A stretch of DNA of 46,547 nt, from positions 1 to 46,547 of the forward strand of contig JACAVV010000036.1 in assembly GCA_024648695.1 (NCBI GenBank). The letters run 5' to 3'. The notes beneath the pieces are model-generated. The model ran no database searches. It saw only the letters and a list, made by a program, of their open reading frames with translations, and had not been told where the DNA came from. Positions within the stretch are counted from its first letter, which is position 1. Each line of letters opens with the position of its first letter. Shown here one piece after another: positions 10,723-41,278 of this stretch. The DNA comes from Nitrospina sp. Lineage in GTDB: Bacteria; Nitrospinota; Nitrospinia; Nitrospinales; JACRGP01. Made by a program: the position numbers and the translations under genes.

Positions 10723-11790
10723 ATGAACGATTCGAAATTAATATCATCTCCCGTCTCCCCGTCATGTCCGGTTCCACTGAGCAGGCAACCGACAATCACC
10801 CTGGCGCATGGCGGGGGCGGAAAATGGACCCGGCACCTGATCGATTCGGTGTTTTATCCGGCCTTTGAAAATCCGGATCTTGAAACCCACCACGACAGCG
10901 CACTTTTGAAACTGGGTTCGGATCGATTAGCGCTCACAACTGATTCTTTTGTGGTGGATCCCATCTTGTTCCCGGGCGGCAACATTGGAACATTAGCGGT
11001 CAATGGAACCGTGAACGATCTGGCCATGAGCGGCGCGCGGCCCTTGTTCCTGACGGCCGCTTTTATTCTGGAGGAAGGCCTGTCCATCGAAACGCTTCAA
11101 ACCGTTGTCCAGTCCATGCGGCAGGCGGTGGATGCTTCGGGAGTGAAAATCGTCACCGGAGATACCAAGGTGGTACCCAAAGGCAAGGGAGATCAATTGT
11201 TCATAAACACCACCGGGGTGGGTAGGGTGGAACATGATCTCAAGATTCACCCTGCATCCATACGGTCCGGCGACGCAGTGTTGGTGAGCGGGGACATTGG
11301 CAGGCATGGTATCGCAGTGATGGCGGCGCGCGAAAACCTGGGATTCGAAAACGTCATCGAAAGCGACTGCGCCGGGCTTTGGAAATCAGTCCACGCTTTG
11401 CTTGAAACCGGAATTGAGGTCCACTGTCTGCGTGACTGCACCCGTGGTGGACTCGCCACCGCGCTTATCGAACTTTCACATTCCGCAGGGGTGGCGATTG
11501 AATTGGATGAATCGGCTATTCCTATACAAGAAGAAATTCAGGGCGCATGCGAACTGCTCGGATTTGATCCACTCTATGTAGCGAACGAAGGATGCTTTGT
11601 TGCTATTGTCCCTCCCAACGACAGGGACCGTGCTTTGGAAATCCTGCAGGAGCACAAGCAGGAAGCTACCGTGCGAATTGCTGGTCAGGTTTACGAATCC
11701 GCATCCCCCCGCGTCCGCCTGAAAACGAAAATAGGCACCTCGCGCCTCCTCGAATTATTGAGCGGAGAACAGCTTCCACGAATCTGTTAA
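10723..11790 (+). CDS. hypE: Hydrogenase maturation protein HypE
   Basis: The 355-residue protein is a full-length HypE of the AIR synthase/PurM superfamily. It has the N-terminal AHGGGGKWT and LTTDSFVVDP motifs, GTVNDLAMSGARP, VTGDTKVV, DCTRGGLATALIEL, and the invariant C-terminal PRIC, whose last Cys carries the carbamoyl group that HypE dehydrates to thiocyanate for the Fe-CN ligands of NiFe hydrogenases. It works with HypF, HypC and HypD. None of those, nor a hydrogenase, is in the window, so the gene is isolated here. The start has no strong ribosome binding site; a weak TTGCAT-16-TGTAAT pair lies at 10549-10576. Confidence 0.95.
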   Translation: MNDSKLISSPVSPSCPVPLSRQPTITLAHGGGGKWTRHLIDSVFYPAFENPDLETHHDSALLKLGSDRLALTTDSFVVDPILFPGGNIGTLAVNGTVNDLAMSGARPLFLTAAFILEEGLSIETLQTVVQSMRQAVDASGVKIVTGDTKVVPKGKGDQLFINTTGVGRVEHDLKIHPASIRSGDAVLVSGDIGRHGIAVMAARENLGFENVIESDCAGLWKSVHALLETGIEVHCLRDCTRGGLATALIELSHSAGVAIELDESAIPIQEEIQGACELLGFDPLYVANEGCFVAIVPPNDRDRALEILQEHKQEATVRIAGQVYESASPRVRLKTKIGTSRLLELLSGEQLPRIC

Positions 11791-11832
11791 TAAAATTCTC
11801 AGTAAAGTTTGCTGTTATTTTTTCAAAAAATA

Positions 11833-11841
11833 TGGTATATT
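11833..11841 (+). promoter_or_regulatory. Extended -10 promoter for the candidate RNA
   Basis: TGGTATATT fits an extended -10 element (TGnTATATT). There is no good -35 at standard spacing, as is allowed for extended -10 promoters. Transcription would begin near 11848 and meet a terminator at 12020-12044. Confidence 0.5.
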
Positions 11842-11847
11842 CTTGCT

Positions 11848-12044
11848 AGATTGGTTAGTAGAAGTCATTTGCGTTTTTTTTCGAAGCACCCATTGGGCAA
11901 AGCCCGAACGCTTTACGTGCAGTTTAGGCAGGTCTTTAACAAGATCCGTCGAAAATTTTTAGTACGAGCTATTGCATGAACGTGCTGAATCGAGTGAAAA
12001 CATCAAGTTTTTTCGGAAGCCATCCTTAGCGATGGTTTTTTTTT
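11848..12044 (+). ncRNA. Candidate structured RNA of about 195 nt upstream of the cold-shock gene
   Basis: A self-contained transcription unit can be drawn: an extended -10 promoter at 11833-11841, about 195 nt without a convincing reading frame, and a terminator hairpin with a nine-T run at 12020-12044. Local stems are visible: GGGC-AAA-GCCC inside a GCGTT/AACGC frame around 11871-11911, GG-TCTT with AAGA-T-CC around 11931-11947, and AGTACG pairing with CGTGCT around 11961-11986. The CGTGC at 11916 could pair with the same GTACG, so two mutually exclusive folds are possible. Size and position would suit a 6S-like RNA or an attenuated leader of the cold-shock gene; I could not match it to a known family by eye. 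Confidence 0.45.
12020..12044 (+). terminator. Rho-independent terminator of the candidate RNA
   Basis: The hairpin CCATC-CTTAGC-GATGG (12020-12035) is followed by nine T residues. It lies 113 bp before the cold-shock start and just before a separate -35 box, so it ends the upstream transcript rather than the cold-shock message. Confidence 0.65.
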
Positions 12045-12072
12045 GACTTGAGAACCTTTTTCAGGGTTTATT
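12043..12072 (+). promoter_or_regulatory. Promoter of the cold-shock gene
   Basis: A TTGACT -35 box (12043-12048) is followed after 18 bp by TTTATT (12067-12072). Transcription from about 12079 gives a leader of about 80 nt. The -35 overlaps the T-run of the preceding terminator, an unusually compact arrangement. Confidence 0.5.
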
Positions 12073-12157
12073 AGTACAACCGATCTTTAATTAGAATCGG
12101 GGGGTTGGTTTCAAAATCACTTGAAAGGCCGCCTCGAACACTTAGGAGAGTCTTTAA

Positions 12158-12358
12158 ATGACAGCAGGTACTGTAAAGTGGTTTAATGAAAGCAAAGGTT
12201 ATGGTTTTATTCAATCGGAAGATGGCGAAGATTGTTTCGTGCACTTCTCGGAAATTCAATCCGACGGGTTCAAAACCCTGAATGAAGGTCAAGCCGTAGA
12301 ATTTGAAAAATCAATGGGTCAAAAGGGTCCGCAAGCTTCCAAAGTAATCCCAAAATAA
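12158..12358 (+). CDS. Cold-shock domain protein (CspA family)
   Basis: The 66-residue protein is a single cold-shock domain. It has [15 protein letters not shown], containing the RNP1-type motif, and CFVHFSEIQ, containing the RNP2-type motif, in which Cys replaces the usual Val before FVHF. The length matches the family norm. Such proteins bind single-stranded RNA and DNA and act as RNA chaperones. TAGGAG precedes the ATG. A strong terminator follows at 12380-12409, so the gene is probably monocistronic, with its own promoter and an upstream structured RNA. Confidence 0.97.
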
Positions 12359-12379
12359 TCAGATTCAATCCAGCTTTTG

Positions 12380-12409
12380 CCGGCAGAGCTCAGGCTCTGC
12401 CGGTTTTTT
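12380..12409 (+). terminator. Rho-independent terminator after the cold-shock gene
   Basis: CCGGCAGAGC (12380-12389), a short TCAG loop, GCTCTGCCGG (to 12403), then six T. The ten-base-pair perfect GC-rich stem plus T-run is a classic intrinsic terminator. Confidence 0.9.
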
Positions 12410-12442: not shown

Positions 12443-12622
12443 ATGATGCATCCGGTAAAAGTTTACGATGCCTCCGGTAAACTTAAAAAAGTGATCTCGG
12501 TTAAAACATTAACCGAACGGTCTGAAAAATTGATTGAAAGTCCGACCATGTTTCGCAAAAATGCCAGAACCGCCAAAGCACAGGCACAATCGACAGAAGT
12601 TGCCACCCCCGAAAGTGAATGA
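12443..12622 (+). CDS. Small uncharacterised protein (59 aa), related to the one at 4386
   Basis: The ATG at 12443, itself followed by a second ATG, comes after AAAGGAGAGA, a strong ribosome binding site. The product starts MMHPVKVYDASGKLKKVI and becomes Lys/Ala/Thr/Ser-rich towards the C-terminus. Its opening matches the 70-residue protein at 4386 in the pattern H-X-V-(R/K)-V-(F/Y)-X3-G-(Q/K)-L-X3-I. No known domain, signal peptide or membrane segment is seen. It lies behind the cold-shock terminator, so it may be expressed by read-through or from its own promoter. Function unknown. Confidence 0.65.
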   Translation: MMHPVKVYDASGKLKKVISVKTLTERSEKLIESPTMFRKNARTAKAQAQSTEVATPESE

Positions 12623-40936: not shown

Positions 40937-41278
40937 TTCATCCTCCAGTTATTTCTTTCAGGCAGATCCGCTTGAGTTTCTGGTGCCGGCACAGGTTTTT
41001 CCTATACAAACACGGTTGTGGTCAAACGGGATCGGCTTTGGATTCTGGACGCACTGAAGCCCTATTGGAATTCCAGAAGATTGGAACAGGCCTTATCCTC
41101 GGGTCTAAGAGGGAAGAGCAGGTGGCACCAAGGTCCTTCTGTGGATGGTCATTTCAGGGCACTATAAGATTTTCCCATAATACCACTCAGGGAAAACCGG
41201 AAAAACACCACGATCCAGGTTCAATTTTTAAGTCATTATGGGGAGTGGGTTGTGGGAAGTCAACCGTTTTTGCCGGAA
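40937..41278. other. Intergenic region, no supported gene
   Basis: Lies between ppdK and the epimerase gene, both on the minus strand. A frame of 112 codons on the plus strand has no ribosome binding site of its own and no motif. I see no terminator; a promoter for the epimerase operon must lie here but was not identified. Confidence 0.4.

Follow-up and report, generated by a model that had tools for sequence, protein, structure and literature searches.

In the literature reviewed here, as far as its texts were available, leaders of cold-shock protein (csp) genes in model bacteria are described as acting on translation or RNA stability. The leaders of Escherichia coli cspA, cspB, cspG and cspI are given as 159, 160, 155 and 145 nt, respectively, in the sections available of PMC6719143, and a reference cited in PMC3738593 (available in part) treats the E. 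coli leader as a thermosensor that controls translation. The Agrobacterium tumefaciens RNA C1_109596F, upstream of cspA, was first predicted to be an sRNA; the available part of the report identifies it as the cspA 5′ UTR by Northern blot, on a transcript of ~500 nt, matching Rfam's cspA family and reportedly not expressed by itself (PMC3738593). In Bacillus subtilis, cspB and cspC carry cold shock boxes in their 5′ UTRs, and suppressor mutations of cspC fall in or near these boxes; the available text mentions no internal terminator for either leader (PMC8307031). Transcription attenuators, such as TPP riboswitches and the trp and pyr leaders, instead place a promoter, a structured leader and an intrinsic terminator before the gene. 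Our searches of the open-licence PMC literature, on partly available texts and so without proof of absence in print, found no csp leader with a comparable internal terminator, and no paper combining Nitrospina, small RNA and cold shock.

The DNA analysed here (the window) is the 46,547-nt contig JACAVV010000036.1 of a 4.2 Mb Nitrospina sp. genome. A sequence-only reading had proposed a candidate RNA with its own promoter, alternative pairings and terminator upstream of a cold-shock gene. The position was correct, with csp at 12158–12358 matching PF00313, and we consider it likely from sequence comparison that 11833–12158 comprises the csp promoter and a 5′ leader of ~310 nt, with an internal terminator at which transcription would stop or read through, rather than a free-standing gene. 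The features of the locus are as follows.

10723–11790, same strand as csp: hypE (TIGR02124 match)
11833–11841, + strand: extended −10 promoter element TGGTATATT (sequence; matching box in relatives)
11848–11867, + strand: conserved 5′ box AGATTGGTTAGTAGAAGTCA (5′-end alignment of 73 leaders)
11900–11986, + strand: window-only insertion of 87 nt with GTACG and the two CGTGC copies (aligned against 31 other leaders with a terminator)
12017–12044, + strand: internal intrinsic terminator, stem AAGCCATC/GATGGTTT and T-run (terminator scan; stem pairing in relatives)
12078–12086, + strand: 3′ strand of long-range helix P1, AACCGATCT (9-bp pairing with 11848–11856)
12097–12137, + strand: hairpin P2, directly before the ribosome-binding site (fold; covariation)
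12144–12148, + strand: Shine-Dalgarno AGGAG (sequence)
12158–12358, + strand: csp, cold-shock domain protein of 66 aa (Pfam PF00313, 100.3 bits, cut-off 27)
12379–12404, + strand: terminator 3′ of csp (terminator scan)
12443–12622, + strand: conserved small ORF of 59 aa, KVYDxxGxLKKVISVK-type, downstream of csp (BLASTP to relatives)

The extended −10 promoter named in the sequence-only reading is present, and a TGnTAnnnT box recurs at the matching place in 73 usable csp upstream regions, including that of the window, out of the 92 examined in the order (presumably Nitrospinales). Those 92 comprise 30 loci, 60 further stretches and loci L002 and L003, and there are at least 92 among the csp genes listed; regions were dropped for lack of a TGnTAnnnT box in range or because the contig was short, three were removed by hand as mis-anchored (L094, L140 and L110), and for L142 the box was picked manually. 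A scan of the 1-kb stretch with the leader found no canonical −35/−10 pair. Downstream of the TGnTAnnnT box, many csp leaders of the order share a 5′ box with a consensus of about GGGUUGnnnAAGUCA, which differs in the csp leaders of genus g14 (AAGACAAUU); the latter were excluded from our covariance models. One 5′-box word, GGTTGNNNGAAGTCA, has an exact match at 41248–41262 on the + strand of the window, where the 5′-box word search as a whole returned chance levels (7 matches vs 4.6 expected).

Many relatives share one layout: TGnTAnnnT box, 5′ box, a variable body, in many cases an intrinsic terminator, some 20–40 nt of spacing, a CAACC-type motif, P2, the Shine-Dalgarno sequence and csp. 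The partner of the 5′ box in these relatives is the CAACC-type motif past the terminator. The window follows the same layout, with its own 87-nt insertion, and there AGAUUGGUU (11848–11856) pairs with AACCGAUCU (12078–12086) in 9 bp (P1), downstream of the terminator, at a pair probability of 0.97–0.98 predicted by equilibrium folding between 4 and 45 °C. With P1 5′ strands aligned without use of the 3′ side, the pairing score over all 73 leaders was 1046.6 for own strands vs 955.5 for strands swapped between leaders (sd 18.5, largest 1030.1; 5000 swaps). Relatedness inflates this score, and we therefore tested 25 divergent leaders chosen by a similarity cut-off, in which own pairing again exceeded swapped pairing (p = 0.00025; repeat, 0.0004), while three neighbouring regions put through the same test as controls gave p = 0.99, 0.93 and 0.34. 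A P1 score of 14 or more was reached by 42 of the 73 leaders, vs 1, 2 and 10 when neighbouring regions were scored and 9, 12 and 13 for shuffled sequences. Counted back from the csp start codon, the 3′ strand starts at 81 to 78 nt (interquartile range), a spread of 3 nt vs 9–13 nt in controls, and core columns occur with several pair types (column 8: UA 46, GC 13, UG 7, GU 2; column 10: GC 46, UG 9, GU 5, UA 3, AU 2). The mere presence of a helix of 5 bp or more is weak evidence alone (71 of 73 own vs 48–56 of 73 in six controls). Unlike the position-restricted tests, an unrestricted search over wide regions barely separated own from swapped pairs: 8 of 75 leaders reached or passed the 90th percentile of swapped values.

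P2 behaved similarly, with a swap-test p of 0.0045 in the 25 divergent leaders and a score over all 73 of 1060.0 vs 994.7 (sd 22.2; largest of 5000 swaps, 1084.8). Covariance analysis of homologous upstream regions, proposed as a check on the sequence-only reading, supported both helices. The terminator stem was paired in 97.1% of cells across 35 aligned matches (30 csp leaders and 5 others), and in seven sequences both partners of one of its pairs had changed. Because P1 pairing covaries across the terminator, the candidate RNA and the csp message are evidently parts of one conserved RNA, and we infer from this covariation that promoter and terminator both sit upstream of csp on csp's own transcript. 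The full transcription unit ending at 12044 that had been proposed therefore stands as regards its promoter box and terminator, but is incomplete, because its 5′ strand pairs with 12078–12086. Its description as ~195 nt of structured RNA also holds better for the larger object: taken alone, the 197-nt piece exceeds shuffled sequences in stability only mildly (z = −1.80; 9 of 200 shuffles did as well), whereas the whole leader into csp is more clearly structured (z = −2.73, 0 of 100 as good) and its fold holds P1, the terminator and P2.

The terminator of the sequence-only reading was found at 12015–12040, one of 3 terminator-like sites in the 1-kb stretch vs 1.0 expected. Between the 5′ box and the P1 3′ strand, an intrinsic terminator occurs in 33 of 73 leaders (window included) vs 2.9% of dinucleotide shuffles, and in 13 of 25 divergent representatives vs 3.0% of shuffles; in the other 40 of the 73 no terminator was recognised. 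Such a terminator was present at only 2 of 68 csp loci of other lineages, counted with a required hairpin of −5 kcal/mol, a cut at which the order gives 32 of 73; the comparison loci had at least 200 bases upstream, excluded L004–L011 and included one record titled Nitrospinae (L080). The second hairpin of the covariance model, an AU-rich AAAAC/GUUUU helix before the terminator that looks good by eye, was paired in only 49.1% of cells. For terminator stem and AU-rich hairpin together, the covariation score was the only one of five measures to exceed all 500 shuffles, and two of the five fell below the shuffled mean. In equilibrium folding at 37 °C, the called terminator hairpin had a probability of 0.1 or less in 6 of the 33 terminated RNAs. 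Long 5′-box leaders without a recognised terminator were seen in other csp paralogues (L111, L114–L120, L153, L155, L156, L162 and L167); these have separate conserved segments, such as GAAGTGGTTCTCTAAAAGTTCTTGCATC in L153 and L156.

An Rfam search, suggested with the sequence-only reading, returned no family, the cspA thermoregulator (RF01766) included, in the window or in eight loci, one of them the window's own. The suggestion that the element might be 6S-like fails: 6S RNA (RF00013) was not even among weak matches of 11780–12170, and the genome carries its 6S RNA elsewhere (G000:C2:117441–117620, locus L266; 76.6 bits, cut-off 46.4). The alternative suggestions of a leader and of a new family agree with what was found, a conserved csp leader that matches no Rfam family. 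The proposed switch, in which GTACG would pair with either of two CGTGC copies, is present in letters (GTACG at 11962–11966; CGTGC at 11916–11920 and 11981–11985), and equilibrium folding predicts an exchange with temperature: pairing with 11981–11985 falls from 0.97 at 4 °C to 0.59 at 37 °C and 0.29 at 45 °C, while pairing with 11916–11920 rises from 0.00 to 0.21 and 0.30. All three sites, however, lie in the 87-nt insertion, which has no counterpart in 31 aligned relatives (at most about 9 letters in four of the rows; L106 was excluded from this alignment), and by hand arithmetic about 1.5 partners of 5 bp, G–U allowed, are expected for GTACG by chance in 197 nt. On this alignment the exchange is not a feature of the leader family, although the predicted shift of partner may be relevant in this organism.

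A covariance model of the 5′ half (R1), built from csp leaders of 20 relatives with the window excluded, recovered the window at 11844–12046 (43.1 bits, E = 7.6e-7 for 46.5 kb). Over 64 genomes of the order it gave 39 matches in 35 genomes: 33 before csp, 5 before other genes and 1 at a contig end. The five non-csp leaders, recovered though R1 was trained on csp leaders only, were added to give model R2, which over 77 genomes of the phylum gave 41 matches in 36 genomes, all within the order; none came from the 13 phylum genomes outside it, under filters able to lose weak matches. By coordinates, 35 of the 41 precede csp, three a small ORF (G002, G004 and G007), two a DEAD-box helicase gene (G001 and G003; Pfam PF00270) and one lies at a contig end. 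Training sequences of R2 account for 23 of the 41, and the other 18 comprise 17 before csp and the contig end. Of the alignments used, A2 includes L101 and L132 and A3 does not.

Whole-genome searches scored the window weakly and partially (R1, 34.8 bits, E = 0.0025; R2, 31.8 bits, E = 0.007), and at E = 1e-4 R2 missed 4 of 39 sources (the window, L089, L095 and L141); the insertion is probably behind the weak, partial or missed match of the window. At low thresholds in 12 genomes, R2 gave 12 strong matches, and of the next five (E below 0.1) four likewise precede csp by coordinates; another 13 matches ranked below these. DNA similarity alone traced the element in only 3 of 61 genomes, one being its own and the other two over the terminator only. 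In the window's genome, the R2 search found a single copy of the leader, and the DEAD-box helicase locus of that genome (L243; Pfam DEAD) had no R1 match at E = 1.

The small ORF behind the leader in three genomes is a relative of the window ORF at 12443–12622, which has 51% and 55% identity (BLASTP) to the ORFs at L204 and L208 (G002 and G007) and no Pfam or NCBIfam match. Of 46 helicase loci retrieved, 8 also contain the csp leader, which makes csp and helicase close neighbours in these; in two loci the leader directly precedes the helicase gene. Read by eye, P1 of the small-ORF leader in G007 has different letters that still pair (GAUGGAU/AUCCAUC), and no P1 was seen in the two helicase leaders. 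By eye, the helicase leaders L206 and L207 also have another GC-rich hairpin with a T-run soon after the first terminator, which suggests tandem terminators. Judged from its position, from P1 across the terminator and from the csp genes behind 35 of 41 matches, the element is placed by sequence in the 5′ leader of csp genes. Comparison of genomes shows as conserved, at the level of sequence, the promoter box, terminator, P1, P2 and the association with csp, the helicase gene and the small ORF.

As read from its sequence, the leader has the anatomy of a transcription attenuator, with a start, a choice at the terminator, and csp reached only after readthrough. RNA polymerase would begin near 11848, the putative start site, and would either stop at the internal terminator near 12044, yielding a short RNA of ~195 nt, or read into csp. 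Once transcription has read through, the 5′ end of the RNA would pair with 12078–12086 as P1, closing the leader as one domain before P2 and the ribosome-binding site. We infer that termination is partial and regulated, as well as the nature of its regulator; readthrough would most likely increase in the cold, or when Csp protein melts the terminator in a feedback loop. In the available parts of two reports, E. coli CspD promotes readthrough at intrinsic terminators, and B. subtilis CspB and CspD mostly favour termination (PMC9765468, PMC8307031). As Csp proteins act both ways on readthrough, feedback of either sign is conceivable here. The likeness to TPP, trp and pyr leaders lies in the order of parts, whereas no ligand is named, and no antiterminator supported by covariation was found, for the leader described here.

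A more specific version of attenuation, which we regard as possible yet doubtful, has the 5′ box exchange partners: it would first occupy the 5′ arm of the terminator, allow readthrough, and then move to the 3′ strand of P1. The duplex of 5′ box and arm averages −7.6 kcal/mol vs −3.8 for windows of the leader body, and in the window the arm is predicted to pair with the box while the 3′ arm has yet to emerge (probability 0.83 at 10 °C and 0.70 at 37 °C). Over 33 leaders, however, this predicted pairing averages 0.37–0.39 and is absent in several, partners swapped between species revealed no covariation (p = 0.64 and 0.62; L106 excluded), and a G-rich box beside a C-rich arm could yield such pairing as a by-product.

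We hold about equally low confidence in a translational RNA thermometer like that of E. coli cspA, in which refolding with temperature would expose or hide the ribosome-binding site and the terminator would be leaky and incidental. Such a role would suit a long, structured csp leader, the inclusion of terminator-less leaders in the P1 and P2 tests, and the predicted temperature exchange within the window's insertion. The exchanging part is not conserved, however, there is no Rfam match, and the accessibility of the Shine-Dalgarno sequence is predicted to change only mildly, from 0.62 at 4 °C to 0.83 at 45 °C, rising with warmth and thus in the wrong direction for cold induction. A thermometer would also leave the conserved terminator unexplained.

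It is considerably less probable that the element is the gene of a trans-acting small RNA that merely neighbours csp and has its own promoter. Promoter box and terminator do form a self-contained unit, and the short RNA left by termination would be present either way and could act in trans, but no stand-alone copy occurs among 40 evaluable R2 matches in the 77 phylum genomes, the same element stands before three kinds of gene, and P1 links it to the region past the terminator; furthermore, an extended −10 between terminator and csp start codon is absent in 33 of 33 terminator leaders. Finally, that the terminator belongs to the upstream gene, hypE in the window, is very improbable: hypE does share the strand of csp, with its end at 11790, but a promoter box and a conserved 5′ box intervene, and we rejected the idea on the strands of the longest upstream ORFs of the 33 terminator leaders, which by a crude count are opposite in 19, the same in 13 and not seen in one.

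With csp attenuation as the preferred reading, the leader differs from those at the same place in E. coli, B. subtilis and Agrobacterium by its terminator and closing helix, a distinction drawn from published descriptions and Rfam. The E. coli cspA-type 5′ UTR with its cold box is, like ours, a long csp leader with a conserved box, but the leader described here has no Rfam match and carries an intrinsic terminator and a covarying closing helix. C1_109596F likewise lies upstream of a csp gene and was first taken for an sRNA, but matches the Rfam cspA family where the window does not, and the terminator of the window predicts a short product. The cold shock boxes of B. subtilis cspB and cspC are, by published description, a parallel to the conserved 5′ box. 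Runs of six or more U in leader bodies (27 of 72 vs 15.9 expected) are too weak a signal for calling Csp sites.

At its broadest, the comparison points tentatively, and in our view with less than even probability, to an RNA-encoded cold-shock regulon specific to one lineage: a single attenuator family outside Rfam would precede csp, a DEAD-box helicase gene and a small uncharacterised protein in one order (Nitrospinales-type), its 5′ box would swap partners from the terminator arm to the P1 strand, and cold or Csp would open transcription. Nitrospina is the major marine nitrite oxidizer, going by the title of a cited reference. In its lineage, a conserved leader that carries a premature terminator ahead of csp, an RNA helicase gene and a gene for a small protein would move control by csp leaders to the level of transcription, and the csp leader allows a direct test of whether Csp proteins regulate their own genes via termination.
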